Assembly: GCA_010672165.1 (NCBI GenBank)
Contig: JAAHHN010000062.1
Coordinates: 1 to 32,209 of the forward strand
Source of the DNA: Spirulina sp. SIO3F2
Lineage (GTDB): Bacteria > Cyanobacteriota > Cyanobacteriia > Cyanobacteriales > Spirulinaceae
Length of the DNA: 32,209 nucleotides
Direction: 5' to 3'
Shown here: positions 1,605 to 26,053 of the stretch, one piece after another
Layout of the letters: every line of letters begins with the position of its first letter
Position numbering within the stretch: the stretch's first letter is position 1
Program-made: the position numbers and the translations under genes
The notes under the pieces: model-generated
What the model saw: the letters and a program-made list of their open reading frames with translations, nothing else
Database searches by the model: none
What the model was told of the DNA's origin: nothing

Positions 1605-4481
1605 CTAATGCTCTGAAAGGGGTAAGACTGAGACACCTTCTGCGAACCCATCTATATTGAGTTGGGTAAAGTCTGGGGGCACAACTGGGCGATCGCAGCT
1701 AACCTTGCGGCTCTCTTGCCCTGTACTGACATCAATTGTAATCGCTTCAAAACGAATCGCTAAACTCCCTAACGGCACAATAATTTGGGTCATGGTCTCT
1801 AAATGACCGGTTGGCAACGTTTCAAAGTCCACAAAAGCTCTCGGTCCATCCAAAAGCTGACGAGTTTCACAGTCTTTAACCCAAAGCTTGACATAGATCA
1901 AGCCCGATCGTTCAGGAATCTTAACTTTAACCAGTACTAAATCACCTGCCACCAGTTCTCCGGCGGGCAGCATCAGCTCAGGTGTTGGTGGTGTTGTCAG
2001 TGGGGAGGATGACATGGAAGATGGCGTTGAGGTCTTGGCTAAGGCAGAATGCTGAGGGGGATTCGTTGGTGAGAGCCAGGCGGTCGTGTCTTGAAGTTGG
2101 CTGGGATAAGGCAGACCCGAAGCATCATATGTCGGTAAAGGTGGCGCAATCGACGGCACTGAATCTTCGCGCAACTCAGAGAGGTCTTCGTCAACAACAA
2201 ACTCCTGCAAGGGCCAATCACTGGAATGTTCTGGCATAGGGGCTAGAGGCTCTGGTTGTTTGGGGGGGGCAGTGGTATCAGCGGGTTTTGCCAAGGTTTT
2301 CCCCTCTGCTAGACGACTGAGCTGTTGTGAGAAGCGATTGTCAAAATGCAGGGACTGCGCAGTCGAACTAGCCGTTTCCAGCTCAGAATCAGGCTGTTCT
2401 AGAGACGATGGAGTCAACTCAGCCTCCAATTGGGTTACAGCAAGTTCAGAACCATCAATTTCAAACAGATTGAGCTCTGGGATTAGCGATTGCTCTGAGC
2501 TGTATTCAGTGCGCGATTGGGGTGCGCTAATCTGTTGCAAGTCTTCCCTCTGCCTCTGGGGATTCAAGTTCTGGTTAGAATCATTTTTGTTTAACGAGAA
2601 TGTTGTGCCCACAGCCTGCTTGTGGGTCATCCCTTGCTCTGATGTGTCATCGACCCTGGCCGCAAGAGTGGCCATCAACTCATCTCGGTCAACATTTGAG
2701 GGCTCAACAGGGAATGAGTCTGAGCCCAAGTCCAAGGCGTCTGACTCAACACCCTTCTGTCCAAGCACCATTGACGTCGAGAACGCGTTTACAGCAGCGT
2801 GGGCAGAGGGGGGTGGATTACCAAAACTAGGAAGTTCTGGCATTTTTCGATCTGTACCACTGGTTTGAGGCAATTTGGGAGGCAGGACTGTCGGTTGGGC
2901 TTTTGCTAGGGGTTGAACTAGGTGTGGATAGTTTTCTTGAGCCGTAGGCATTTTCAAAGCAGGGGGCGGCTCGGGTTGCAACTGTGACGTGGGTGTTTGA
3001 TGAACGGTCTGAAGCAGATCAGCTAGACCTGCCGTAATGGAGAACGTCTGTTGGGCGAGTGACTGCTCGTCACCTTCACCTGTGGTGAGCGCAGGCTGGG
3101 TAATCGTTAAACGTACTTCTCCCAAGACCAGCCGGGTTGCATAAGCAGTGGGGACATCTAAAAGATAGTTGAACACCAAGGGAATCGTGGCGTCGTGGAG
3201 GGGCTGTTCGACGGCTAGAAGTAATTCTTGTGTTTGGGGATCGCGTAACTCATAATGCAAGAAACCCGCAAATCCTTGATCCAGAATGCTTGACTCTAAC
3301 GTATCTCGCAGCTCAACTTGGCCAGAGATGAGAATCGGTTCGTCCTGATGGCGAATAAATGTATCTTGAGCTAAGGTAATGCTCAGACAGGGTGGATTAA
3401 CCCCAGAGAAAGGCTCAGGTACAGAAGATCCAGGCAACGGCACTGTTGCAAGCGTAGGCGTGGTCAAAAAAGCATCTGCTGGCAATTCCGTTGGAGTAGG
3501 AGAAGCTGCCGTCCGTTCTGTGATTAGCTCAGGGGGAGTCGATACGGTCGGTGGCGGGATCAGATTCTCACCTGGCTCACTCACCTGTTGCAGTATTTGC
3601 TCGAGGCTTTGGATTGATTGCTCAAGGAGTGCATGGGGATTGTCGCCGAATTCAGGGGGGGGTTGATTGTTCTGAGTTGTCAATTCAGGAACAGATGAGA
3701 CTTCAAATTCGACGTCATCACCAGTTAAAATCTCAGGGGTCAGAGCGGCTGTGGAAGATTCAGCTGGGGGCTCATTTGGGGCAATCCGCTCGGAGATACG
3801 TTCAGACTCAAGCTCAAGGGGTGTGAGCCAGGCGGCTGGTGCTTCTTCAGTGGGTATGGAGTCGGGGAGTTGCTGTGGGTTAACCAAAGCCAAGGGAGGC
3901 AGCGAAGCGAACCAGGAAGCCGAATCAGGTTCTGATTCAAGGGAAGCAAATGCCGTCGTAACAGGTTCGAGTTGAGTGGGCTTAGGCTGGGTGAGAGAGA
4001 AAGTGGGTTGATAGGCTGCTGCCCGTTGTGGTGGGAGAACGACAGAGTCAGCATCTGAGTGGTACTGAATCGCTGGCTTTGCATCAGAACTGATATCCAC
4101 TTTGATCGGCTCTGTTCCTAACGAGTTAGTGTTGGGCGACTTTACCTTCATGTGGATGACATCTTGCCAATCGTCACCCCAAAGCGCTCGAATTTGGGGT
4201 GAACTGATATGTAACTCCCAGAAACCTGGCCGGAGGTCGGTAAAGGGCACAATGACCATCAAGCCTTCTTCGCTCGTCCGTCCAACCCGCTTTTGCGATC
4301 GCCGCTCTAGATTGGTTTTATCTAAGGTTTGATAGAAAACCTGAATTTCGACATCAATTTTGGGTGGGCAGCCTTGGGCAATCAGACGATACGTACCGGC
4401 CCCCAAACTCACCTTACGAGTCTGGAGCGGCAGCCAGGAGCGTGTTCCCTGTTTTTGTAGTAGAAATTCCCAAGTTTCCAT
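1605..4481 (-). CDS. Large low-complexity cyanobacterial protein, function unknown
   Basis: This 958-aa protein has no signal peptide or transmembrane segment. I see three probably folded islands: residues 1-120 (beta-rich, starting METWEFLLQKQG), about 365-470 (beta-sandwich-like, PCLSITLAQDTFIRHQDEP) and about 850-950 (LVAGDLVLVKVKIPERSGLI, VDFETLPTGHLE). Long Pro/Ser/Thr/Glu/Gln-rich linkers, expected to be disordered, separate them. The outer islands resemble each other in general character (interaction-type beta domains), but I do not recognise a named family. It sits 15 bp after hisS and 37 bp before the sirB1-like gene, so it is probably translated from the hisS transcript. The long linkers suggest a scaffold or tether; that is inference. 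Confidence 0.75.
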   Translation of the reverse strand: METWEFLLQKQGTRSWLPLQTRKVSLGAGTYRLIAQGCPPKIDVEIQVFYQTLDKTNLERRSQKRVGRTSEEGLMVIVPFTDLRPGFWELHISSPQIRALWGDDWQDVIHMKVKSPNTNSLGTEPIKVDISSDAKPAIQYHSDADSVVLPPQRAAAYQPTFSLTQPKPTQLEPVTTAFASLESEPDSASWFASLPPLALVNPQQLPDSIPTEEAPAAWLTPLELESERISERIAPNEPPAESSTAALTPEILTGDDVEFEVSSVPELTTQNNQPPPEFGDNPHALLEQSIQSLEQILQQVSEPGENLIPPPTVSTPPELITERTAASPTPTELPADAFLTTPTLATVPLPGSSVPEPFSGVNPPCLSITLAQDTFIRHQDEPILISGQVELRDTLESSILDQGFAGFLHYELRDPQTQELLLAVEQPLHDATIPLVFNYLLDVPTAYATRLVLGEVRLTITQPALTTGEGDEQSLAQQTFSITAGLADLLQTVHQTPTSQLQPEPPPALKMPTAQENYPHLVQPLAKAQPTVLPPKLPQTSGTDRKMPELPSFGNPPPSAHAAVNAFSTSMVLGQKGVESDALDLGSDSFPVEPSNVDRDELMATLAARVDDTSEQGMTHKQAVGTTFSLNKNDSNQNLNPQRQREDLQQISAPQSRTEYSSEQSLIPELNLFEIDGSELAVTQLEAELTPSSLEQPDSELETASSTAQSLHFDNRFSQQLSRLAEGKTLAKPADTTAPPKQPEPLAPMPEHSSDWPLQEFVVDEDLSELREDSVPSIAPPLPTYDASGLPYPSQLQDTTAWLSPTNPPQHSALAKTSTPSSMSSSPLTTPPTPELMLPAGELVAGDLVLVKVKIPERSGLIYVKLWVKDCETRQLLDGPRAFVDFETLPTGHLETMTQIIVPLGSLAIRFEAITIDVSTGQESRKVSCDRPVVPPDFTQLNIDGFAEGVSVLPLSEH

Positions 4482-6023: not shown

Positions 6024-7745
6024 CTAGAACGTGAACGTGGTGCGGAGGGTTCCCACAATCGTATCGTTGTCGATTTGGTTGGGCGCAGTGAGCCAGATAA
6101 AACCGGGTGTGATCGAGATGTTGTCACTGAGTTGATACTTATAGAACAACTCAACGTGATAAGGCGTCTCATCTGTATCGAAGGCTAGACCCGGAATATC
6201 AATGCTACCGGCATAGGGTTGAGCACCTGCAAATAGACCCAGTACATTACCCTCGCCACCCAAATCCGGGAAAGCCAAACCTGCACCATAAGTCCAAATC
6301 TCTGCATCGCCCTTGCGACTTCCCACGAGCGTAGCATCTGTATAGGCGAAGAAACCACTAAAGGAGATGTCATCGCTAATGCGCCAAGCCAGCTCCGCAC
6401 CATAAGAATTGGTGGCATTGGGCGTATCGGTGGAAACGCCGCCACCACCGACCAAGTTCGCCAAAGCTGTACCCACAACGCCAGGTGTACCCACACCTCC
6501 GAGGTCAAAAACTGAGGTGTTATCGGGGTGGTAACCATGCACATAGGTCAGACCGAGGGCAATATCATCACTGATGTTGACGTTGGCTTGACCCAAGAAG
6601 GCATAGTCCCCAGAGAAGAGACCCCGAGTGGCATCGTTGGCTTGGCCAGCGAGATAACCAACCGTAATTGTGGAGGGGCCGAGGATGCTATCGAGGAGGT
6701 CAAAGTTGAAGCTAAAGCCTGCACCTGCACCCCCACCAATCCGATAGATGGGGCTTTCGGATGCAAAGGTGGAAAGGGCACCATTACCCCCGTCGTAGTC
6801 CTCAAAGTAGGGGTTGAGAGTGGGGACAAAGTCACTCCAAATCCCGCCATTGGCAGCAATATAACCTTGAGAATCGCCTACAGGGAAATAATAAGCTACC
6901 CAGTCGATTGCAACATTGTTGTTGTTGTTGCCAAGGTTGAAGGTCTGGGTGGTTTCACCCGTTTGAATCCCTGCAAAGTTCACCACCGTATTCGTGTTGA
7001 ATGCAGGTGCTGCCAGGTTCCCCGTCGCCAAACGAGTAATCAAAAGGTCTTTACCGCTAAAGCTGGTGTTGAGGGTGAGGCGAGCCCGATAGCCAAGAGT
7101 CAGCTCTTCATCAGTGTTGTTGACCACTGCGCGGTAGTTACCGCCATTGGCAACCCCTTGGTTGCTGGTAAACACATCTTGGCCACTAAACAGTCCGGTT
7201 GCCGCAACGATAACCTCACCTGTGAGCTTGGTGGTGGTAGAGAAGCTGTTGTCTTCTAAGAAAGAAACACGGCTCTCCAGGGCATCCACACGAGCGCCGA
7301 GGGCAGCCAGCTCAGCCTCGAAATCTTCCATCAGGCGCTGAATTGTTGCCAGGTCATCGCGGGTGACAAAGTCAGCCGTCGTTTCAGCAATCAGGCGCTC
7401 AATTTGCTGCATACAAGCATTTAAGCCTGCCGCGAATTCGTAACGAGAGAGGGCTCGGTTGCCGCGGAACGTGCCGTTGGGATATCCCTTAAGGCAGTCG
7501 TAGCGACGCACCAAGTCATCCAGGGCTTGATACGCCCAGTCAGAGGGAGAGACATCACTAAACTGCGCAGCACCAACACCCTGACCCAGACCTTGATCAA
7601 AGCTGAACTGGGACTCATAAGTATCCATTTGACCCAGGAGTGCTTCAACCTCATTTAGAGATTGAGCTGTCGCTGCGGTTGCACTCAGACCCACTGTGGC
7701 TAATACTGCGCTAGAAATCTGTAGAGCTTTGTTTTTGAACACCAT
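6024..7745 (-). CDS. SLH-domain OprB-type outer-membrane porin (iron-uptake porin family), copy 1
   Basis: The product is a 573-aa cyanobacterial outer-membrane porin. Residues 1-27 are a signal peptide (MVFKNKALQISSAVLATVG, cleavage near ATA/Q). One SLH domain follows at about residues 60-118 (FSDVSPSDWAYQALDDLVRR, KGYPNGTFRG). A short coiled coil comes next (LMEDFEAELAALGARVDALE), then a beta-barrel of about 400 residues ending in TLRTTFTF, with the terminal Phe usual for barrel proteins. The SLH domain is expected to contact peptidoglycan or its polymers. I chose ATG 7745 rather than the upstream in-frame GTG at 7763, because the GTG overlaps the Shine-Dalgarno AGGAG. Cyanobacterial members are often called iron uptake porins; the substrate cannot be read from sequence. 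It is the last of three tandem copies. Confidence 0.93.
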   Translation of the reverse strand: MVFKNKALQISSAVLATVGLSATAATAQSLNEVEALLGQMDTYESQFSFDQGLGQGVGAAQFSDVSPSDWAYQALDDLVRRYDCLKGYPNGTFRGNRALSRYEFAAGLNACMQQIERLIAETTADFVTRDDLATIQRLMEDFEAELAALGARVDALESRVSFLEDNSFSTTTKLTGEVIVAATGLFSGQDVFTSNQGVANGGNYRAVVNNTDEELTLGYRARLTLNTSFSGKDLLITRLATGNLAAPAFNTNTVVNFAGIQTGETTQTFNLGNNNNNVAIDWVAYYFPVGDSQGYIAANGGIWSDFVPTLNPYFEDYDGGNGALSTFASESPIYRIGGGAGAGFSFNFDLLDSILGPSTITVGYLAGQANDATRGLFSGDYAFLGQANVNISDDIALGLTYVHGYHPDNTSVFDLGGVGTPGVVGTALANLVGGGGVSTDTPNATNSYGAELAWRISDDISFSGFFAYTDATLVGSRKGDAEIWTYGAGLAFPDLGGEGNVLGLFAGAQPYAGSIDIPGLAFDTDETPYHVELFYKYQLSDNISITPGFIWLTAPNQIDNDTIVGTLRTTFTF

Positions 7746-7885
7746 CTGGTATCTGCTCCTCACAAAGTAAATTGAATAAGTAACAGTGCAATTAATCGAT
7801 CACAGTGCTTAATTTAACCATAAAGATTTGATGATAATTTCCTGAGAGCATTGGCTTTAAGTTTCCTCAGCACCAATACAACAAG

Positions 7886-7962: not shown

Positions 7963-9624
7963 TTAGAACGTGAAGGTGGTACGGATGGTTCCGACCAACG
8001 CATCGTTATCAATTGAGTTGGGGGTGGTCAACCAAATAAAGCCAGGTGTGATCGAGATTTGGTCGGTGAGCTGGTACTTGTAGAACAACTCAACGTGGTA
8101 AGGCGTATCATCAACGCGGTAGCCGCCATTGGAGAGGTTCGCAGAACCCAGGTAGGGTTGAGCACCGGCAAACAGACCCAAGAGGTTACCCTCGCCACCC
8201 AAGTCGGGGAAGGCTAAGCCTAAACCGTACGTCCAAACTTCAGCATCACCGGTAACACCAGTACCCACGACATCGGTGTAGGCAAAGAAACCGCTGAAGG
8301 AAATATCATCGTTGATGGCCCAAGCCAGCTCTGCACCGTAGGAGTTAGAGGATTTAGCAACCCCTTCCAGGTTGGCAGGGCCGGTACCCACAACCCGAGA
8401 ACCACCACCCAGGTCAAAGAGGGCACTGGTGCCACCGGGATGATAGCCGTGGACGTAGGTCAAGCCGAGAGAAATATCCTCAGTCAGATCACCAGCGATC
8501 TGACCCAAGATGGCGTAGTCACCCGAGAAGAGACCTTGGGTTGCATTATTGGCTGTACCAGAGAGATAACCCGCAGATAGGTTGAACTTGTCACCGAGGG
8601 GATAATTGATCCCGGCACCGGCACCACCGCCAATGCGGTAAATGGGGCTCTCAGAAGCAAAGGTCGAGAGGGCACCATTACCACCGTCGTAGTCTTCAAA
8701 GTAGGGGTTGAGGGTGGGGACAAAGTCACTCCAGATCCCGCCGTTGGGAGAGATAAAGCCCTGAGCCTCATCACCCAAGGGGAAGTAATAGGCGATCCAG
8801 TCGATAGCAACGGCGTTATTGTTTGCACCCAAGTTGAAGGTCTGAGTGTTCTCACCCGTGACATTCCCTGGCAAGAAGCCAGCACCATTAGCGGTGTTCA
8901 AACCAGGTGTTGCCAGGTTTCCGGTTGCCAGACGCGTGATCAAAAGATCCTTACCGCTGAAGCTGGTATTGAGGGCCAAACGCGCACGATAACCGAAGGT
9001 GATTTCGTCATCCGTGTTATTGACGGTTGCAGCGTTACTGGCGCCTTGAGTCGCGGTGAAGGTCTCATTACCACCGATCAAGCTAGTTGCAGCCATGATC
9101 ACCTCACCCGTCAACTTGGTGGTGGTGGAGAAGCTGTTGTCTTCCAAGAAAGAAACGCGGCTTTCCAGGGCATCCACACGAGCGCCGAGGGCAGCCAGCT
9201 CAGCTTCGAAATCTTCCATCAGGCGCTGAATCGCATCCAGGTCCTCACGGGTGACAAAGTCAGCCGTCGTTTCAGCAATCAGGCGCTCAATTTGCTGCAT
9301 ACAAGCATTTAAGCCCGCCGCAAACTCGTAACGGGAGAGGGCCCGGTTGCCGCGGAAGGTGCCGTTGGGATACCCCTTGAGGCAGTCGTAGCGACGCACT
9401 AAGTCATCCAAGGCTTGATACGCCCAGTCGGAAGGGGACACATCGCTAAACTGCGCTGCACCAACGCCACCTTGATCAAAGCTAAACTCGGACTCATAGG
9501 CGTCCATCTGACCAAAGAGTGCTTCAACCTCACTTAGAGATTGAGCCGTCGCTGCGGTTGCACTCAGACCCACTGTGGCCAGGGCCGCGCTGGAAATCTG
9601 TAGGGCTTTGTTCTTGAATACCAT
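7963..9624 (-). CDS. SLH-domain OprB-type outer-membrane porin, copy 2
   Basis: This 553-aa paralogue has the same order as copy 1: signal peptide (MVFKNKALQISSAALATVG), SLH domain at about 55-115, coiled coil (RVDALESRVSFLEDN), then the barrel ending TIRTTFTF. It lacks the GLGQ insertion that copy 1 carries before GVGAAQF. The ATG at 9624 is preserved relative to its neighbours and is preceded by GTGAGGAG as Shine-Dalgarno; the longer in-frame GTG start would overlap it. Its 5' third is nearly identical at DNA level to copy 3, while the outer-loop part of the barrel differs, as expected if exposed loops diversify. It ends in the hairpin at 7886-7912. Confidence 0.93.
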   Translation of the reverse strand: MVFKNKALQISSAALATVGLSATAATAQSLSEVEALFGQMDAYESEFSFDQGGVGAAQFSDVSPSDWAYQALDDLVRRYDCLKGYPNGTFRGNRALSRYEFAAGLNACMQQIERLIAETTADFVTREDLDAIQRLMEDFEAELAALGARVDALESRVSFLEDNSFSTTTKLTGEVIMAATSLIGGNETFTATQGASNAATVNNTDDEITFGYRARLALNTSFSGKDLLITRLATGNLATPGLNTANGAGFLPGNVTGENTQTFNLGANNNAVAIDWIAYYFPLGDEAQGFISPNGGIWSDFVPTLNPYFEDYDGGNGALSTFASESPIYRIGGGAGAGINYPLGDKFNLSAGYLSGTANNATQGLFSGDYAILGQIAGDLTEDISLGLTYVHGYHPGGTSALFDLGGGSRVVGTGPANLEGVAKSSNSYGAELAWAINDDISFSGFFAYTDVVGTGVTGDAEVWTYGLGLAFPDLGGEGNLLGLFAGAQPYLGSANLSNGGYRVDDTPYHVELFYKYQLTDQISITPGFIWLTTPNSIDNDALVGTIRTTFTF

Positions 9625-9687
9625 ATGGAATTTACTCCTCACTCACTAAAGCTGTAATTATAACGGTCATAATGACAAACGGCGTTA

Positions 9688-9941: not shown

Positions 9942-11585
9942 TTAGAAAGAGAAGGTGGTTCGGATGGTGCCAACCAACGCATCGTTATCGATCTGGTTGG
10001 GGGCGGTTAGCCAAATAACACCCGGGGTGATCGAGATTTGATCGGTGAGCTGGTACTTGTAGAACAGCTCAATGTGATAAGGGGTTTCGTCTGTGTAGAA
10101 GGAACCTGAAGAAAGATTAACGTTCCCTGCATAGGGTTGAGCACCGGCAAAGAGACCTAAGAGGTTACCCTCACCACCCAAGTCGGGGAAGGCAAGTCCT
10201 AAACCGTAAGTCCAGACTTCAGCGTTACCTGTGGCAACACTGGTGGCAATGACATCGGTGTAGGTGAAGAAACCGTTGAGGGAAATATCATCGCTGATTG
10301 CCCAAGCCAGTTCTGCACCGTAGGAATTACTTGATTTGCCAACACCATTCAAATTAGCTGACGCAGTCCCAACACCGAGATCAAAGAGATCGTTGCCGCT
10401 GGGGTGGTAGCCGTGGACGTAGGTGAAGCCCAAGGAAATGTCTTCGGTGATATCACCAGCAATTTGACCCAAAATGCCATAGTCACCCGAGAAGAGACCT
10501 TGAGTTGCATTGTTGGCGGTGGAGGAGAGATAACCCACGGAAAGGGTGAATTTGTCACCGAGAGGATAGTTCAAACCAGCACCAGCACCAGCACCGATCG
10601 CGTAGATGGGGTTCTCAGAGGCAAATTGAGAGAGAGCGCCCTTACCATTGGTGTAGTCCTGGAAGTAGGGGCTGAGGGTGGGAACAAAGTCATCCCAGAT
10701 GCCGCCATTGGCAGCGATAAAGCCCTGAGCTTTATCACCAATGGGTAGGTAGTAAGCCAACCAGTCAATGACTACACCGTTTGCATTGCCATCATTAAAA
10801 GTCTGGGTATTTTCTTTGGTGTCTTGACCAGCGAAGAGACCTACGCCATTGTTGATGTTAAGTCCAGGCTTGGCCAAGTTTCCAGTGTTCAAGCGGGTTG
10901 CCAAGAGGTCTTCACCCGTGAAGCTGGTGTTGAGGGTAAGACGAGCGCGATAACCGAAGGTGATTTCGTCATCCGTGTTATTGACCACTGCACCAGTTGT
11001 TGTACCTTGGCTACTGGTGAAGGTCTCATTACCACCGATCAAGCTAGTTGCAGCCATGATCACCTCACCCGTGAGCTTGGTGGTGGTGGAGAAGCTGTTG
11101 TCTTCCAAGAAAGAAACGCGGCTTTCTAGGGCATCCACACGGGCACCGAGAGCAGCCAGCTCAGCTTCGAAATCTTCCATCAGGCGCTGAATCGCATCCA
11201 GATCTTCACGGGTGACAAAGTCAGCCGTCGTTTCAGCAATCAGGCGCTCAATTTGCTGCATACAAGCATTTAAGCCCGCAGCGAATTCGTAACGGGAGAG
11301 GGCCCGGTTGCCTCGGAAGGTGCCGTTGGGATACCCCTTGAGGCAGTCGTAGCGACGCACTAAGTCGTCCAACGCTTGATACGCCCAGTCAGAAGGGGAC
11401 ACATCGCTAAACTGCGCTGCACCAACGCCACCTTGATCAAAGCTAAACTCGGACTCATAGGCGTCCATCTGACCAAAGAGTGCTTCAACCTCGTTTAGAG
11501 ATTGAGCCGTCGCTGCGGTTGCACTCAGACCCACTGTGGCCAGGGCCACAGTGGAAATCTGTAAGGCTTTGTTTTTAAATACCAT
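9942..11585 (-). CDS. SLH-domain OprB-type outer-membrane porin, copy 3
   Basis: This 547-aa paralogue carries a signal peptide (MVFKNKALQISTVALATVG), an SLH domain (FSDVSPSDWAYQALDDLVRR), a coiled coil and a C-terminal barrel ending TIRTTFSF. The conserved Cys pair in YDCLKG and LNACMQQ is present in all four porins of the window. ATG 11585 follows the GTGAGGAG Shine-Dalgarno, as in the other tandem copies. It is the first gene of the porin run, divergent from leuS, with about 245 bp between the two starts that must hold both promoters. Each of the three genes has its own downstream hairpin, which suggests partly separate transcripts rather than one simple operon. Confidence 0.93.
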   Translation of the reverse strand: MVFKNKALQISTVALATVGLSATAATAQSLNEVEALFGQMDAYESEFSFDQGGVGAAQFSDVSPSDWAYQALDDLVRRYDCLKGYPNGTFRGNRALSRYEFAAGLNACMQQIERLIAETTADFVTREDLDAIQRLMEDFEAELAALGARVDALESRVSFLEDNSFSTTTKLTGEVIMAATSLIGGNETFTSSQGTTTGAVVNNTDDEITFGYRARLTLNTSFTGEDLLATRLNTGNLAKPGLNINNGVGLFAGQDTKENTQTFNDGNANGVVIDWLAYYLPIGDKAQGFIAANGGIWDDFVPTLSPYFQDYTNGKGALSQFASENPIYAIGAGAGAGLNYPLGDKFTLSVGYLSSTANNATQGLFSGDYGILGQIAGDITEDISLGFTYVHGYHPSGNDLFDLGVGTASANLNGVGKSSNSYGAELAWAISDDISLNGFFTYTDVIATSVATGNAEVWTYGLGLAFPDLGGEGNLLGLFAGAQPYAGNVNLSSGSFYTDETPYHIELFYKYQLTDQISITPGVIWLTAPNQIDNDALVGTIRTTFSF

Positions 11586-11831
11586 CTGGAATCTGCTCCT
11601 CACAAATCAATTAGGTTAGGCAGGATTTTTGTATAACACCATCTAGATTAATCAGACTGAAGTTTTACCTTAATCTCTGATTAATCTCTGAGATGCTAGC
11701 ACAAAAATAAAAATGTGATCTGTATTCGATAATTTAGTTTAGACAGGGGTAAATAGAGAGAATTTTGTTCCGTAACACGACATATTACAGGCTACAATAC
11801 CTGCGATGTGTTTTAGACGCCAAGGAGAACT

Positions 11832-15422: not shown

Positions 15423-16046
15423 ATGACCCATGATTACATTGAATATTCCAACAGTATTTACACAGTATCCAACTTGCTCTCAGAAGAACGCTGTGCAGAA
15501 CTGATCGCGCTCTCTGAACAGATGGGCTACAATTCAGCCCCGATCACCACAGAACGGGGATTTGAAATCAAACAAAATATTCGCAACAATACTCGCGTTA
15601 TTTTAGATTCCATCGAATTAGCTGAGGAGTTTTGGTCTTTAGTCGAGCCTTGGGTGGTAAGCGATTGGAGAACTTGTAAGGCAGTTGGACTCAATGAGCG
15701 ATTTCGATTTTACCGATACGATTCAGGACAACAGTTTGATTGGCATCGGGATGGGATCTATCGGCGTAAAAATGGACAGAAGAGCCTGTTTACTGTGATT
15801 TTCTACCTCAACGCTGACTTTGATGGTGGCCTGACAGAATTCAGGGATTTAGAAATCCCCATAGAAGCAGGTTCAGCCCTATTCTTCTGGCATTCTGAGC
15901 TGCACCGGGGGTCTCCCGTGACGGCAGGACGAAAATATGTGCTCCGGACTGATGTAATGTACAGTCCAGAGCCGACGTTTAAAACGTGCCAGGTTAGTGA
16001 CCTTCCCTTGTCTCTCTATCATGGCGATCGTCATGCGTGGTCTTGA
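15423..16046 (+). CDS. 2-oxoglutarate/Fe(II) dioxygenase, prolyl 4-hydroxylase-like
   Basis: This 207-aa protein has the double-stranded beta-helix signature of the P4Hc family. H108 and D110 (FDWHRDG) with distal H161 (SELHRGSPV) would bind Fe(II). R175 (KYVLRTDVMY) is placed to bind 2-oxoglutarate. Family members hydroxylate protein or small-molecule substrates; the substrate here is unknown. The ATG at 15423 follows GGGAAGTTCCAAGACA, a weak ribosome binding site. It stands alone between a repeat and a trpB remnant, in a part of the window that looks like accessory DNA. It is a different subfamily from the PiuC-type protein at 22772-23431. Confidence 0.88.
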   Translation: MTHDYIEYSNSIYTVSNLLSEERCAELIALSEQMGYNSAPITTERGFEIKQNIRNNTRVILDSIELAEEFWSLVEPWVVSDWRTCKAVGLNERFRFYRYDSGQQFDWHRDGIYRRKNGQKSLFTVIFYLNADFDGGLTEFRDLEIPIEAGSALFFWHSELHRGSPVTAGRKYVLRTDVMYSPEPTFKTCQVSDLPLSLYHGDRHAWS

Positions 16047-20980: not shown

Positions 20981-22603
20981 TTAGAACTTGAAGCGGGTGC
21001 GGATCGCGCCCATGAGAATGTCTGGGTTATTGTCGTTATTGTTCGGTGCTGTCAGCCAAATAAGACCAGGCGTTATCTCAATGCTATCGCTAAGCTTGAT
21101 TTTGTAGAAGCCTTCAATATGGAAGCTGGTGTCCGGGTCACCCCGACCATTCGTGCCGTTGAGGTCAAGGAGATTATTAGAAACCAACTGGCCATCGGTA
21201 TAAGCTAAGTAGGGTTCACGACCGATGATAAAGCCCAAGACATTGCCATCCCCACCCAAATCGGGGAAACCCAGAGTCAGTGCATAATTCCACACCTCAG
21301 CACTGCCCTGGCCAAGGACAATCGCATCACTGTAGCCAGCCCAACCGCCAACGAAGAAACTGTCGCTAACGTCAAAATGAGCTTCTAAGCCGTAGTTGTT
21401 GTGGGTAGTGGGAGAATTCACATCCACGTTCGAGGCAACACTCCCGGTGGAATGACCGATACCGGACAGAGCCGAATAGCCGTGAACGTAAGCAGCCGCG
21501 ATCGCAAAATCACCATTGTCGAAGACCAAACGTGCTGGGATTGAATAGTCGCCGCTGAAGACCCCTTTAGTGGCTGTGGGAGCATCGCCGGCAGTATAGC
21601 CCACATCAAAACTCAGGTCATCCGAGAGCTTATAGTTGAGTGCAATCCCAGCCGTATCTGTGCCTGTACCCCGGTAGATGAATGGATTGCGCTGACCAAA
21701 CCGGGAGAGAGCACCGCCCCCTGTGGAAGCGAAGGGGCTCAGAGGGCTCATCAGGTCATCGAGATCGATGCCATTGGCCCAAATTTGCAGTTTGGCACGA
21801 TCGCCCACAGGTGTTTTATAAAACACCTGGTCAAGGTCAATGTTTTGTATCCCCCGATAACCTAAGCGGGCTTCATTGGTGAAGTTGCGGACATCAAAAT
21901 CCTGGATATTCCGGGCACCCAGACGCATTCCTAATTGGTCTTCACCGTTAAACGAGGTGACGAGCTTAAGGCGTGTTCGATAGCCAAAAGTAATTTCATC
22001 CCCAGGTTGGCTGGTGGCTTCGGTGAGGCGATCGCCATCGGTGGGGTTGTCAAAGCTGCCGTCATAAAAGGCCTGCTGTTGGGTAAAGAGCACTTCCCCC
22101 TGGAGCTTAACCGTGGTTGAAAACTGATTATCTTCTAAAAACGAAACCCGGCTGTCTAAGGCATCAACCCGTGCACCCAAGGCCGCAAGCTCTGCTTCAA
22201 AATCCTGCATGAGGCGACGCAGGGTTTCAAGATCATCACGGGTGACAAAGTCAGCGGTCGTCTCAGCAATCAGGCGCTCGATTTGCTGCATACAAGCATT
22301 CAAACCTGCCGCAAATTCATACCGTGAGAGGGCACGATTGCCCCGAAACGTGCCGTTGGGATAACCCTTGAGACAGTCGTAACGACGAACCAAGTCATCC
22401 AAAGCTTGATATGCCCAGTCACTCGGGGAAACATCGCTAAACTGAGCAGCTCCAACGCCTTGGCCAATCGTGCGGCTACGATTGTAATCTCGAACTTGGT
22501 TGAGCACCTCTTGGGTATTGGTTTGCGCATCTACAGCTAAAGGTTGTGCCAAAAGCAGTGATGCCCCAAGCACAGCACATCCAGCTTTCCGTAAGTTTGA
22601 CAT
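20981..22603 (-). CDS. SLH-domain OprB-type outer-membrane porin, copy 4
   Basis: This 540-aa porin is more divergent than the tandem three. The signal peptide differs (MSNLRKAGCAVLGASLLLAQ, cleavage near VDA/Q), and there is an RDYNRSRTIGQ linker. The SLH and coiled-coil region (FSDVSPSDWAYQALDDLVRR to VSFLEDNQFSTTVKL) is almost the same. The barrel ends GAIRTRFKF. I chose ATG 22603: the longer in-frame TTG at 22624 overlaps the GAGGAG Shine-Dalgarno. It lies 168 bp downstream of the PiuC-type gene on the same strand, near the multicopper oxidase and the His-rich lipoprotein. That context favours metal transport. It has its own strong terminator. Confidence 0.93.
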   Translation of the reverse strand: MSNLRKAGCAVLGASLLLAQPLAVDAQTNTQEVLNQVRDYNRSRTIGQGVGAAQFSDVSPSDWAYQALDDLVRRYDCLKGYPNGTFRGNRALSRYEFAAGLNACMQQIERLIAETTADFVTRDDLETLRRLMQDFEAELAALGARVDALDSRVSFLEDNQFSTTVKLQGEVLFTQQQAFYDGSFDNPTDGDRLTEATSQPGDEITFGYRTRLKLVTSFNGEDQLGMRLGARNIQDFDVRNFTNEARLGYRGIQNIDLDQVFYKTPVGDRAKLQIWANGIDLDDLMSPLSPFASTGGGALSRFGQRNPFIYRGTGTDTAGIALNYKLSDDLSFDVGYTAGDAPTATKGVFSGDYSIPARLVFDNGDFAIAAAYVHGYSALSGIGHSTGSVASNVDVNSPTTHNNYGLEAHFDVSDSFFVGGWAGYSDAIVLGQGSAEVWNYALTLGFPDLGGDGNVLGFIIGREPYLAYTDGQLVSNNLLDLNGTNGRGDPDTSFHIEGFYKIKLSDSIEITPGLIWLTAPNNNDNNPDILMGAIRTRFKF

Positions 22604-22771
22604 AGTTGTTTCTTCGCTCCTCAAGAATTAGGTTTTTGGGTTTGTGCGGACTTAAACCAAAATTAACCCAGAATTAATCCAGTGCAGATCACCATATCCT
22701 ATCCACTCGGATTTCGCCAGATCCGGTCAGAGAATATCCATTTTGGGAAGCGATCGCTCACATCACCCAGC

Positions 22772-23431
22772 TTACTCTACCCACATTCGCAGGAGGTTGG
22801 CACTACTTTTGGAGAGTAAGTCAAACTCGGGAGTTTTGCCTTCACGGGCAAACCAACTGCGACGTGCCACTTCGAGGTCAAAAAGAATCTCGCGCTTATG
22901 AACATCTCGAATGCGACTTTGCACCCAACCCACCGCCACCAAGCGAGTCCCAGCCGTAACGGGTTCAACTCGATGCAAAGTGGTGGAGGGATAGACGATC
23001 GCATCTCCAGCAGCTAATTTATAACTCTGCTCATCATCCGCACCTTCAATCACCAGTTCACCCCCCTTATAGTCTGTGGGGTCATTCAAGAAGACGGTGA
23101 ACGAAACATCGGAACGCAGGCCTTGCATCAAGGCGTTGTCAGTATGCCGACCGTAAGCCATACCCACGTCATAGCGACTCATCAGCACGGTGTGGATCTG
23201 CTTCGGTTGCACAGCACTCTGGAAGAGGGGATGTCCATTAAGTGCGGATTTAACCATCTGTTTGAGGGTTGTAGCTTGGGGACAAGTCTTGCTCAGTTGT
23301 TGATTTTCTTTAACCAGCTTGGCGTGCCAGCCGGCCGTCAGCTTACCGTCCACAAAATCGGCTTCGTTGAGGATGGTGCGAATCGTCTTGAGGTCTTCAG
23401 GGGCAAGAACGTGAGGAATTTTAAAACGCAT
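22772..23431 (-). CDS. piuC: PiuC-type Fe(II)/2-oxoglutarate dioxygenase (PKHD-type hydroxylase)
   Basis: The 219 aa match the PKHD-type hydroxylase family, whose Pseudomonas member PiuC is linked to siderophore/iron uptake genes. Fe(II) ligands are H96 and D98 (YGRHTDNALM) and H153 (STTLHRVEPV). R163 (TAGTRLVAVGW) should bind 2-oxoglutarate. The conserved helix TLKQMVKSALNGHPLFQ and the C-terminal DLLSKSSANLLRMWVE are also visible. The true substrate is not known for the family. It lies 168 bp upstream of porin copy 4 and downstream of the multicopper oxidase and His-rich lipoprotein genes. An array of short hairpins (23468-23582) occupies its upstream region. Confidence 0.9.
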   Translation of the reverse strand: MRFKIPHVLAPEDLKTIRTILNEADFVDGKLTAGWHAKLVKENQQLSKTCPQATTLKQMVKSALNGHPLFQSAVQPKQIHTVLMSRYDVGMAYGRHTDNALMQGLRSDVSFTVFLNDPTDYKGGELVIEGADDEQSYKLAAGDAIVYPSTTLHRVEPVTAGTRLVAVGWVQSRIRDVHKREILFDLEVARRSWFAREGKTPEFDLLSKSSANLLRMWVE

Positions 23432-23467
23432 GGATCTCTTGCATATTTGAACAAATGGGCTTTTACG

Positions 23468-23582
23468 CGTTACCTGGCAGAGCCAGGTAATGCGGTTGTA
23501 GAGGCTCTGCCTCTAGAGAGCCATAAGGTTATACGTAGGTGGCAGAGTCACAAATTCAGCATGTCACGGCAGAGCTATGACG
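23468..23582. repeat. Array of four short hairpins with GGCAGAG cores
   Basis: Unit 1 (23468-23492) pairs CGTTACCTGG with CCAGGTAATG around CAGAG. Unit 2 (23499-23515) pairs TAGAGG with CCTCTA around CTCTG, the same core inverted. Weaker units sit at 23539-23551 (GTGGCAGAGTCAC) and 23563-23581 (GTCACGGCAGAGCTATGAC). Similar CAGAG-loop hairpins are widespread cyanobacterial short repeats. The array lies between the His-rich lipoprotein stop and the PiuC start. Confidence 0.75.
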
Positions 23583-23689
23583 CGAGAGAGAATCATAAAA
23601 ACAACGAAAGGGCAAGTTTTACCTACCCTTCTGTTCAAACCTGCGGAAAACTCAATGAGTATTTCTCAATTCAGAACTCAGAAACTGAA

Positions 23690-24595
23690 TTATTTACTCT
23701 TCAATTCAATCTCAGCAACTAGACCAAACACCTCACTGGGTTCCAGGATCGGTGCATCCGGAGGATTCACCTCTGGCCAAGCAGTCTTAAGTTCTTCAAA
23801 GGCTACAGTGATGGCTTCATTTGCTTCTGCATCCATCTGATCCGCAATATTGCCGTAAAGCGTCTCAGCATAGAGCACAAAACCGCGAGAATCTTGGTAT
23901 TCCACAACCTCAACAAACTTCCCGTCTGCGATCGCGGCTTCATACTCCTCCGCAGCCACCCGGAGCATATTATTAACGATCGTTATGGTGAACTCAGGGG
24001 AGTCGAGCTGCTCACTCATCGCGCCGAGGGCAACGTCAATCGCTTTCACCGAATCGCTATAAGCGACCTTAACTTCTGGTGCATCCGGTGTGGTTTTGAT
24101 CAGGTCATGAAACTCGTTGAGTGTGTTCTTGAAGTCATCAACGCCTTTTTCAGGAAGGACTTCTTCTACATCACCGTAGAGTTCCTCTACCGGGTGGCCA
24201 ACATGGGGTTCGGCTTCCTCATAGCTGCCTTGGGTAATTAGCTCATCCGCAACCAGTAAGTGACCTTGCATCAATGCCAGCGCAGTCACATAATCCACAT
24301 CAGCGTTGCCACTGTTGCCCCCTTCACCGCCTTCACCACCTTCACCACCTTCTCCGCCTTCTCCGCCTTCTCCGCCGTGGCTATGATCTTCTTCGCCTTC
24401 GCCACCTTCTCCGCCTTCTCCGCCGTGGCTATGATCTTCTTCGCCTTCTCCGCCTTCTCCGCCGTGGTTATGGCTTTCTTCAGTTTTTTCGCCTTCGCCG
24501 CCTTCACCGCCTTCTGGTGTAGGGGTTGCACAAGCGCCCAGGGTTGCGACGAGGCCAAGGGTTAGAAAGAGTTCAACAGGTTTAATGTGTTTCAT
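23690..24595 (-). CDS. His-rich acidic lipoprotein with imelysin/EfeO-like helical domain
   Basis: This 301-aa protein has a lipoprotein signal (LVATLGAC, Cys22 as lipid site). Residues 29-93 are a Gly/Glu-rich repeat carrying three HxH clusters (H42/H44, H55/H57, H71/H73) inside EEDHSHGGEGGEG units. The remainder, about residues 98-301, is helical (YVTALALMQGHLLVADELIT, EPHVGHPVEELYGDVEEVLP, NNMLRVAAEEYEAAIADG). The HxxHxxEE arrangement recalls imelysin/EfeO-type periplasmic iron proteins, but similarity is weak and I would not name it EfeO. It should be membrane-anchored in the periplasm and bind Fe, Cu or Zn. It lies 76 bp after the multicopper oxidase on the same strand, so joint function is likely. 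Confidence 0.8.
   Translation of the reverse strand: MKHIKPVELFLTLGLVATLGACATPTPEGGEGGEGEKTEESHNHGGEGGEGEEDHSHGGEGGEGGEGEEDHSHGGEGGEGGEGGEGGEGGEGGNSGNADVDYVTALALMQGHLLVADELITQGSYEEAEPHVGHPVEELYGDVEEVLPEKGVDDFKNTLNEFHDLIKTTPDAPEVKVAYSDSVKAIDVALGAMSEQLDSPEFTITIVNNMLRVAAEEYEAAIADGKFVEVVEYQDSRGFVLYAETLYGNIADQMDAEANEAITVAFEELKTAWPEVNPPDAPILEPSEVFGLVAEIELKSK
24317..24511 (-). repeat. In-gene repeat encoding Gly-Glu / HxH metal-binding units
   Basis: The coding strand is a run of imperfect GGCGGAGAAGGC-type 9-nt units encoding GGE. It is interrupted by two near-identical copies of a segment encoding GEEDHSHGGEGG and a variant with HNH. Simple repeats like this change length by slippage, always by whole 9-nt units here, so the frame is kept. 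Confidence 0.85.
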
Positions 24596-24671
24596 GATAT
24601 TTAATGCAAAAGATTCTCAATCCTATAATGCCGATGAATAAGTTAATGCAAATAAAAATAAATGTCAATAG

Positions 24672-25694
24672 TCAGTTTGCTTTTTGCCAGCTCTCTTCAG
24701 ATAACACATCGAAAAAGCCCATGCAGCCCAATTCTGCAATATGGTCTTGATGGGGATGGAACATGTACTTGCCGGTGAAGGGATAGGCAAACTCTAGAAT
24801 GTGGCGTTCGGCAGTCCCCATTGTGATCACGTCGGTTTCTTCATCGGGGGTGAGCGATCGCCCGGTGCGATAGACTCGAAAGAAATTGGCGTGGATATGG
24901 AAAGTGACGGCCGGGTCAAACTCAATCATATTAAGCACATAAAGCCGCACCAACTGGTTTTGCACAATCGGGATCGGACGATCGCGGAAGACATTGGGAA
25001 TCCCGTTAAAGACATATAGTTCATTGTGTTTATCGTTATCCAGGTCATAGCCGCCCATAACCAAAACCAGCTCATCAGCAGGGGGACGCCCACCGGGCGG
25101 ATCAACAATAAACAAACCATAGAGGCCCTTCTCTACATGGCGAGTTACAGGCGCAATATGGCAATGGTAAAGATGGATGCCATAGGGCTGGGCATCAAAC
25201 TCATAAACCTGGGTTTTACCGTGACGAACGGGATTGACGCCGTCCATCTCCTCGGGATGGGTACCGTGAAAGTGCAGCGTGTGGGAATGACCATCGGCGT
25301 TGTGGAAAATCACCCGAACGCGATCGCCTTCAGTTACGCGTAGGGTTGGCCCGGGTACACGACCATTCAGGTTCCAGCTTACGTAGTCGATCGCGCGATT
25401 AAGCTGAATCACAGTGCTATCGGCCTCAACGCGAAATTCCCGAATGCGGCGACCATTTTCGTAATACACCGTGCCGTAGTCAAAGTCCCGTACGATTTGC
25501 AGGGGGTCAAAGCCGTTGCGTTCTAGGCTCTCCTTACTCACTTCAATATCAGGAATGTGCGGTGCTGCCACAGAGGGGCGGCGCTGCCACAGCCCCGCCG
25601 CGATCGCGCTGCCCCCTAGACTCAGTGCCCCCGCCTGCAAAAGCTGGCGGCGGCTCCAGGGGATTCGAGGATGACGGCGAGAGAAATTTGGCAT
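24672..25694 (-). CDS. Tat-exported two-domain multicopper oxidase
   Basis: This 340-aa protein has a twin-arginine signal (SRRQLLQAG, residues 14-22) and two cupredoxin domains. Domain 1 carries HSHTLHFHG (136-144) and LYHCHIAPVTRHVEKGLYG (175-193), giving trinuclear-site His plus type 1 ligands C178 and H186 with Leu191 at the axial position. Domain 2 carries FHIHANF (265-271) and FHPHQDHIAELG (312-323). There the usual Cys of HCH is Pro314, so domain 2 has no type 1 copper. This matches two-domain oxidases with the type 1 site in domain 1. It may oxidise Fe(II) or Cu(I), or be a small laccase; the neighbouring His-rich lipoprotein favours a metal substrate. It is the first gene of this minus-strand group. 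Confidence 0.92.
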   Translation of the reverse strand: MPNFSRRHPRIPWSRRQLLQAGALSLGGSAIAAGLWQRRPSVAAPHIPDIEVSKESLERNGFDPLQIVRDFDYGTVYYENGRRIREFRVEADSTVIQLNRAIDYVSWNLNGRVPGPTLRVTEGDRVRVIFHNADGHSHTLHFHGTHPEEMDGVNPVRHGKTQVYEFDAQPYGIHLYHCHIAPVTRHVEKGLYGLFIVDPPGGRPPADELVLVMGGYDLDNDKHNELYVFNGIPNVFRDRPIPIVQNQLVRLYVLNMIEFDPAVTFHIHANFFRVYRTGRSLTPDEETDVITMGTAERHILEFAYPFTGKYMFHPHQDHIAELGCMGFFDVLSEESWQKAN

Positions 25695-26053
25695 GTTGGG
25701 TGGGCAGACGCAGACAGATCCAGACTTAAAATTAAAAATTATTGCAATTAATTAGCAATTTAAAATCAACTATTGCATCTTAGAGTCATTTAGGTGCGAT
25801 CGGCAATCCCTCCCCCCAACTCAACAAGATGATCGATTAGGCTGGATCTAGTGCCCATTCTTTGGATGCTGCGAGTTTCTAACCTGCATTATTCATGAGT
25901 TCTACCCAAAACCTCTGAACGCTAGCTTCAGCAAAGGGGCGGGCAAGATGCCCGCCCTACGGATCGCAATGGAGAAAACACCGTAGCACAGGCGTCCCGC
26001 CTGCCGACTGAATAATGCAGGCACGGGCACAAATCCCCATCACCCGATTCTTT
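25695..26053. other. Intergenic region between divergent oxidase and VWA genes
   Basis: The part next to the oxidase is very AT-rich and holds ATTGC-N9-GCAAT (25741-25759), a possible but unproven operator. The middle has no recognisable element. The part next to the VWA gene holds the G+C-rich hairpin repeats listed separately. Confidence 0.4.
25937..26003. repeat. Two adjacent GC-rich hairpin repeats
   Basis: GGGCGGGCA/TGCCCGCCC (25937-25957) is a perfect 9-bp stem with loop AGA. CAGGCG/CGCCTG (25989-26003) is a 6-bp stem with loop TCC. Both, with the linking CTACGG/CCGTAGC words, are of a type seen scattered through many cyanobacterial genomes. A decayed relative is at 28904-28925. Confidence 0.75.

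Follow-up and report, generated by a model that had tools for sequence, protein, structure and literature searches.

Among described iron uptake systems, the locus reported here most likely works like yeast Fet3p-Ftr1p, to judge from its predicted products. The locus comprises four consecutive open reading frames (ORFs) on the minus strand, spanning positions 20981–25694 of the window, our term for the whole 32,209-base stretch analyzed (bases 1–32209 of contig C413 in a 7.3-Mb cyanobacterial assembly, genome G000). They encode a two-domain multicopper oxidase (MCO), a predicted lipoprotein (LIP), a PiuC-type dioxygenase and an SLH-OprB porin. ORFs and family profiles agree with an earlier note on this DNA, which had described four consecutive same-strand genes. 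In common with yeast, a multicopper oxidase and an FTR1 permease are linked in relatives, the oxidase's copper-ligand motifs are intact, and REXXE motifs are present in FTR1. Unlike in yeast, the MCO has two domains and an RR signal, a lipoprotein and often a ferritin-like protein are added, the permease is unlinked in the window's genome, and oxidase activity is predicted from sequence.

Three other FTR1-based systems share parts with the locus. EfeUOB and EfeUOB-M combine an FTR1-family permease with a periplasmic all-helical protein, whereas the window LIP has neither an M75 match nor a GxHxxE motif, an MCO is linked, and LIP and M75 rarely co-occur. The cyanobacterial cFTR1 reduction/re-oxidation pathway likewise joins an FTR1 permease to a re-oxidation step; in the accessible part of its review, iron is re-oxidized by oxygen and no oxidase is named (PMC7676907), whereas here an MCO and a lipoprotein are tied to FTR1. 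FtrABCD has an FTR1-family permease with periplasmic partners, and the accessible text calls its ferrous oxidase unknown (PMC11966278); the locus differs in having MCO and LIP. The conserved MCO-LIP-FTR1 set offers a named oxidase candidate where the FtrABCD and cFTR1 literature, as far as accessible, names none.

PiuC-family dioxygenases are known from the CciT-CciO, PiuA-PiuC and Fiu-YbiX pairs. In Caulobacter, according to the accessible text, the PiuC homologue CciO is required by the neighboring TonB-dependent receptor CciT (PMC12004947). Like these pairs, the window includes a PiuC-family dioxygenase, in a locus predicted to serve iron acquisition; it differs in that no TonB-dependent receptor is adjacent or detected genome-wide. 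Among the papers listed in searches of an open-access library, we recognized none describing an MCO-LIP-FTR1 or MCO-LIP-PiuC set; subscription papers lay mostly outside this scope.

We favor, with moderate confidence, the reading that MCO and LIP together make up the periplasmic half of a Fet3p-Ftr1p-like, oxidation-coupled iron uptake system whose permease is encoded elsewhere. Iron would enter the periplasm through porins, the exported MCO would oxidize Fe(II) to Fe(III) with O2, as its copper-ligand motifs suggest, and the anchored LIP would take the substrate or product and pass iron to the FTR1 permease. In most FTR1-type loci the predicted permease and a bacterioferritin-like gene come after LIP; in the window's clade PiuC takes that place, and the permease would be supplied from elsewhere. 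PiuC might support the same iron supply, either as a cytoplasmic enzyme or by acting on a cell-bound chelate. Both MCO and LIP are probably repressed by Fur, on the evidence of a promoter motif.

The oxidase-lipoprotein core and its proposed permease

MCO and LIP occur together across cyanobacterial genomes. In a panel of 99 genomes, the window's own and 98 relatives, 46 have LIP and 43 have a close MCO (E < 1e-100); 43/43 of the latter also have LIP (Fisher p = 7e-25, uncorrected for phylogenetic relatedness). In the three genomes with LIP and no close MCO (G024, G051, G071), LIP is diverged or incomplete, and G051 retains a partial MCO beside its LIP fragment. Phylum-wide, LIP was present in 69 of 386 genomes. 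We then compared two partly overlapping sets of loci: 80 named loci, the best 80 of 390 LIP relatives, all cyanobacterial, and 44 relative loci out of 45 fetched, L076 from G051 having been dropped because no LIP was recognizable in it. With the window these give 125 rows and 118 distinct LIP proteins. A same-strand MCO lies within 2.5 kb upstream of LIP in 67/80 named and 34/44 relative loci; anywhere within 8 kb, the counts are 73/80 and 40/44.

LIP loci take two arrangements, MCO-LIP-(bacterioferritin)-FTR1 and MCO-LIP-PiuC, and the window has the latter. FTR1 lies downstream of LIP in 38/80 named and 22/44 relative loci, PiuC in 17/80 and 9/44, and the two together in none (0/80 and 0/44). 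Genes with ferritin domains lie within 5 kb of LIP in 36/80 and 23/44 loci; a 144-residue protein between LIP and FTR1 carries this domain, as do the two genes that diverge from MCO in loci of the Picosynechococcus type. A tree of LIP built from 109 of the 125 rows, after removal of duplicates and short or unmatched rows, separates 56 FTR1-type from 22 PiuC-type rows by one branch with 100/99 support, and rows of neither type occur on both sides. Picosynechococcus sp. PCC 7117 has a PiuC-type locus (L152). The conserved unit is the MCO-LIP core, with PiuC marking one clade and the porin variable. In L054, L059 and L062, two FTR1 genes with a ferritin-like gene between them lie 3' of LIP.

We rejected a single conserved four-gene operon because PiuC and the porin lack a Fur-like box, a hairpin lies 3' of LIP, and the order MCO-LIP-PiuC-porin recurs in only 4 of 124 related loci (L032, L036, L037, L147). 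The conserved adjacency of the four families, which the earlier note proposed as a check, holds for the MCO-LIP pair and not for the full order.

The window's genome encodes its FTR1 permease on another contig. The profile match (PF03239, 165 bits against a cut-off of 25.3) lies on contig C400 amid unrelated genes, and both REGTE and REGFE, the REXXE motifs of the Fet3p-Ftr1p type, are readable. This match rejects a permease-less genome, one of two options raised earlier, and turns the statement that FTR1 is missing into one that is right for the window and wrong for the genome. The other option, a distant permease, agrees with the result, and FTR1 is likewise elsewhere in 8/9 relatives with PiuC after LIP. 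Counting the window's own, ten genomes have PiuC in this place; nine carry FTR1 elsewhere and in G085 none is detectable. Across the panel, FTR1 occurs in 76/99 genomes, with 40/43 of those having MCO and LIP against 36/56 of the others (p = 7e-4). A tree was built from 54 FTR1 proteins hand-picked from 86 matches; 25/25 operon copies fall inside one 35-row group (support 91/77), and copies from PiuC-type genomes, the window's included, fall outside it, with weak basal forks.

The oxidase keeps the ligand motifs of a Fet3p-type enzyme for type 1 and type 2/3 copper, by the established assignment of such motifs to copper types. H177, C178, H179 and H186 are conserved in 113/113 MCOs collected from the 125 loci (the window's own, 44 and 80), and the HxH pairs 141/143, 266/268 and 313/315 are intact in 112–113 of 113. 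The counterpart of the type 1 motif in domain 2 reads HPH, and type 1 copper is therefore expected in domain 1 only. The nearest solved relatives are named multicopper oxidases (3gdc, E 2e-87; 7rab, 7e-76), with copper nitrite reductases ranking next (9cck, E 4e-41). Ferroxidase activity is predicted from the intact copper-ligand motifs. An RRxphi motif stands near the N-terminus in 107/113 related MCOs. The earlier description of a Tat-exported two-domain oxidase is sustained in its two domains and RR motif, while the TAT model scores the window MCO below cut-off (11.5 against 16.7). No natural MCO-LIP fusion appeared among the ORFs called.

Pfam has no model for the LIP family. From 52 of its members, AlphaFold2 predicts a domain made up entirely of helices, at a mean pLDDT (predicted local distance difference test score) of 96.5. 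A Pfam search with full-length window LIP gave nothing at E values up to 1, and the domain searched alone gave a single sub-threshold Pfam match, unrelated to M75. Its invariant or near-invariant residues, GH, AEPHxGHPVEExY and EYQDSRGF, likely form a metal site. The lipobox LGAC and HxH clusters inside a Gly/Glu linker bear out the membrane-anchored, His-rich lipoprotein proposed earlier. A lipobox was detected in 105/125 related LIPs and is absent from 10/27 PiuC-type LIPs as called; some of the lipobox-less proteins may have been called from a wrong start codon. The two locus types differ at the N-terminal side: a GGEGG linker is present in 24/27 PiuC-type, 0/60 FTR1-type and 10/38 other LIPs, and an N-terminal helix-hairpin-helix pattern in 55/60 FTR1-type versus 0/27 PiuC-type LIPs, with an HHH_3 domain matched in one example.

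The imelysin/EfeO-like body that the earlier note saw in LIP found no support in sequence comparison. The Pfam M75 profile does not match the window LIP and matches 5/52 family members, at best with E 3.6e-5. Profile-profile comparison (hhalign) of LIP with 19 cyanobacterial M75 proteins gave a probability of 3.3, and with seven of those proteins 0.1 and 1.3. GxHxxE is absent from the window LIP domain, where the alignment shows GHPVEE and KGHLxVA. With no M75 match, no GxHxxE and a failed hhalign comparison, we rejected, on sequence grounds, the assignment of LIP to EfeO/imelysin. A Foldseek search of the PDB with the LIP model placed E. coli EfeO first (7wgu), weakly (E 0.13, template modeling score (TM) 0.38). 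With VIA-align, bundles from unrelated proteins led (Z up to 9.3) and neither imelysin nor EfeO was among the 50 matches listed; a PDB sequence search returned low-complexity and designed-protein matches, nothing informative. Remote kinship between LIP and imelysins is possible. LIP occurs in 46 genomes and M75 in 20; the two are seldom found together, with 2 genomes carrying both (p = 3e-4). Between MCO and LIP in L032, at 6528–7325, a LIP-like signal and His-rich linker are fused to a histidine phosphatase domain.

A Fur-box-like palindrome upstream of the core

MCO upstream regions share a palindrome. An expectation-maximization search over 88 such regions (112 before removal of near-copies) returned ATTGAaAATaATTtTCAAT with a log-likelihood of 303, against 40–52 in four Markov-shuffled sets given equal starts and 29–34 in four with fewer starts. 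Scored with a matrix built without the window, sites of 17.6, 15.8 and 13.7 bits are the top three of the 32-kb window; the next score, 9.9 bits, overlaps the site at 25741–25759, and 8.8 bits follows. None of 100 Markov shuffles held a match at the 17.6-bit level, and their median best was 11.2. Matches of at least 12 bits occur in 49/88 MCO upstream regions, the matrix's training set, in 54/122 LIP upstream regions and in 13/365 control regions.

Similar sites occur elsewhere in the genome. Allowing at most one mismatch, the pattern occurs at 6 sites, the window's among them, versus 1 for the reversed pattern. One one-mismatch site lies 43 bases before the ORF of a Fur-family gene, the four best solved relatives of whose product are Fur proteins; of the remaining sites, one adjoins a CobW-like gene, another falls between two different ORFs and a further two are within ORFs. 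The published Anabaena FurA consensus, taken from a source accessible in part, is AAATAAATTCTCAATAAAT; it has the ATTCTCAAT half-site in common with the palindrome, and the remainder differs. Fur appears likelier than Zur as the regulator acting there. Gene neighborhoods and the Fur-like box together make iron handling, part of the Fe/Cu role suggested in the earlier note, a well-supported reading.

Objections and rival explanations

Several observations weigh against an uptake role for MCO and LIP with a remote permease. The window's genome lacks the oxidase-permease linkage of Fet3p-Ftr1p, which is usual and not strictly defining: its FTR1 stands alone, sits on a long branch of unsure placement and has no Fur-like box upstream (best score 1.7 bits). 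The matrix scan found no such box upstream of PiuC or the porin, and of the five other genomic sites just one precedes a clear iron-regulator gene, with two inside ORFs. FTR1 was not detected in 3/43 genomes with MCO and LIP (G001, G085, G091), MCO and LIP are on separate contigs in G001 and G014, and 25/80 named and 13/44 relative loci have neither FTR1 nor PiuC after LIP, some of these loci being truncated at contig ends. Among NCBIfam models the MCO fits copper nitrite reductase best, below cut-off (77 bits against 296), and many two-domain MCOs act on other substrates. A CbiM-like cobalt-uptake gene lies nearby in 15/80 named and 6/44 relative loci (L184, L188, L190 and others), which may mark a second metal link or mere neighborhood.

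A copper locus is unlikely. There the MCO would be a CueO-like cuprous oxidase, LIP a periplasmic copper buffer, and the iron neighbors a sign of Cu-Fe crosstalk. MCOs often oxidize Cu(I), and this one does score on the CopA model (50 of 479 bits) and the CueO model (41 of 525 bits), though far below both cut-offs. The His-rich LIP linker could bind Cu, but the Gly/Glu/His linker is limited to part of the family, as the GGEGG counts show. The neighbors found to recur are FTR1, ferritin-domain proteins and PiuC, no search having been aimed at copper genes, and the promoter motif is Fur-like.

We judge improbable a permease-less variant, in which MCO-LIP of the PiuC clade would only oxidize and sequester periplasmic iron as a defense against Fe(II) and the FTR1 encoded elsewhere would be unrelated. 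The mutual exclusion of PiuC and FTR1 after LIP in the examined loci, the diverged and unlinked FTR1 of the window's genome and the MCO-LIP-PiuC locus of G085 all fit such a variant. Yet FTR1 is kept in 9/10 genomes with PiuC after LIP, the window's included, and the Fur box argues that the genes are expressed when iron is scarce, a state that calls for uptake rather than detoxification.

A zinc or mixed-metal locus whose palindrome is a Zur box can draw on the likeness of Zur boxes to Fur boxes and on the site beside the CobW-like gene, a gene type often under Zur control, but it is very doubtful given the site directly before a Fur-family gene with Fur proteins as best solved relatives, the iron genes FTR1 and ferritin, and the half-site in common with the Anabaena FurA consensus as accessible, for all that the rest differs. 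The literature consulted showed no Zur consensus.

The favored reading, periplasmic oxidation coupled to a remote FTR1, extends to PiuC more tentatively. The window protein belongs to the PiuC/YbiX family (NF003974, 307 bits against a cut-off of 143), in line with the PiuC-type dioxygenase named earlier, and is the sole PiuC match in its genome. The receptor partner typical of PiuC and CciO was not found: that genome, 96.5% complete so that a missed gene is conceivable, has 0 Plug and 0 TonB_dep_Rec matches. Among 11 genomes searched, the ten with PiuC after LIP and G001, Plug is absent from the window's own genome, G031 and G057 and present in the other 8/11; the TonB_dep_Rec search agrees, with none in these three, and G031 and G057 are 99% complete. 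A PiuC without a detected TonB-dependent receptor bears on PiuC function, which the Caulobacter study, in its accessible text, leaves open (PMC12004947). We put forward, as a possibility that we doubt somewhat more than we believe, that MCO-LIP-FTR1 is a widespread cyanobacterial equivalent of Fet3-Ftr1 supplying the re-oxidation step of cFTR1-type uptake, that LIP is a new iron-chaperone family, and that in one clade PiuC joined and works without a TonB-dependent receptor. If so, the PiuC substrate need not be receptor-imported.

Features and neighbors of the locus

Table 1. Coordinates in the window of the four genes and of the sites around them.
Feature	Position	Strand	Remarks
MCO, two-domain multicopper oxidase	24672-25694	-	Cu-oxidase_3 + Cu-oxidase_2; RR signal peptide
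LIP, predicted lipoprotein with Gly/Glu/His linker and all-helical domain	23690-24595	-	
LIP helical domain with conserved GH, AEPHxGHPVEExY, EYQDSRGF	23693-24304	-	family alignments
PiuC/YbiX-type 2-oxoglutarate (2OG)-Fe(II) dioxygenase	22772-23431	-	NF003974
SLH-OprB 'iron uptake porin' family protein	20981-22600	-	OprB + SLH; NF033921
Fur-box-like palindrome 5' of MCO, minus-strand ATTGCTAATTAATTGCAAT	25741-25759		starts 65 bases before MCO start codon; 17.6 bits
Second Fur-box-like site, directly upstream of LIP	24603-24621		15.8 bits
Third Fur-box-like site, in the MCO-LIP interval	24651-24669		13.7 bits
Terminator-like stem-loop, directly 3' of LIP	23607-23631	-	

The genes are separated by 76 bases (MCO-LIP), 258 bases (LIP-PiuC) and 171 bases (PiuC-porin). 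The last figure assumes that the porin starts at ATG 22600, which on reading is likelier than TTG 22624. Terminator-like hairpins show no clear excess over the region as a whole (7 seen versus 5.3 expected from shuffles), and a sigma-70 scan found no enrichment (2 matches versus 5.3 expected).

Two further ORFs in the window and one in related loci stand out. A 958-residue ORF at 1605–4481 has no Pfam match at E 0.01. A 207-residue ORF on the plus strand at 15423–16046 belongs to the 2OG-Fe(II) oxygenase superfamily, the second such protein in the window, and was unmatched in the search of the genome for PiuC. In the Picosynechococcus-type loci L036 (4198–4974) and L152, a 258-residue protein lies 3' of PiuC; it matches no Pfam family and contains a stretch rich in His and Asp.

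The porin is a member of the 'iron uptake porin' family NF033921 (473 bits against a cut-off of 100), and its OprB and SLH domains match the SLH outer-membrane porin named in the earlier note. The link between porin and locus is a tendency, and a loose one. In 13/80 named and 11/44 relative loci, LIP has a porin no more than 5 kb away (binomial p 1e-7 and 1e-8, relatedness uncorrected). The family's density, 2.2 matches per Mb including fragments in 15 hand-picked genomes, some picked for a nearby porin, leads to an expectation of ~0.026 in 11.5 kb. Placement varies: the porin may lie 3' of PiuC, precede MCO on the same strand, as in the Crocosphaera and Cyanothece types, or be divergent. The window's genome has 22 matches to the SLH-OprB porin family, fragments included, and three further members, 46–48% identical to the locus porin, lie one after another on the minus strand of the window at 6024–7763, 7963–9642 and 9942–11603.

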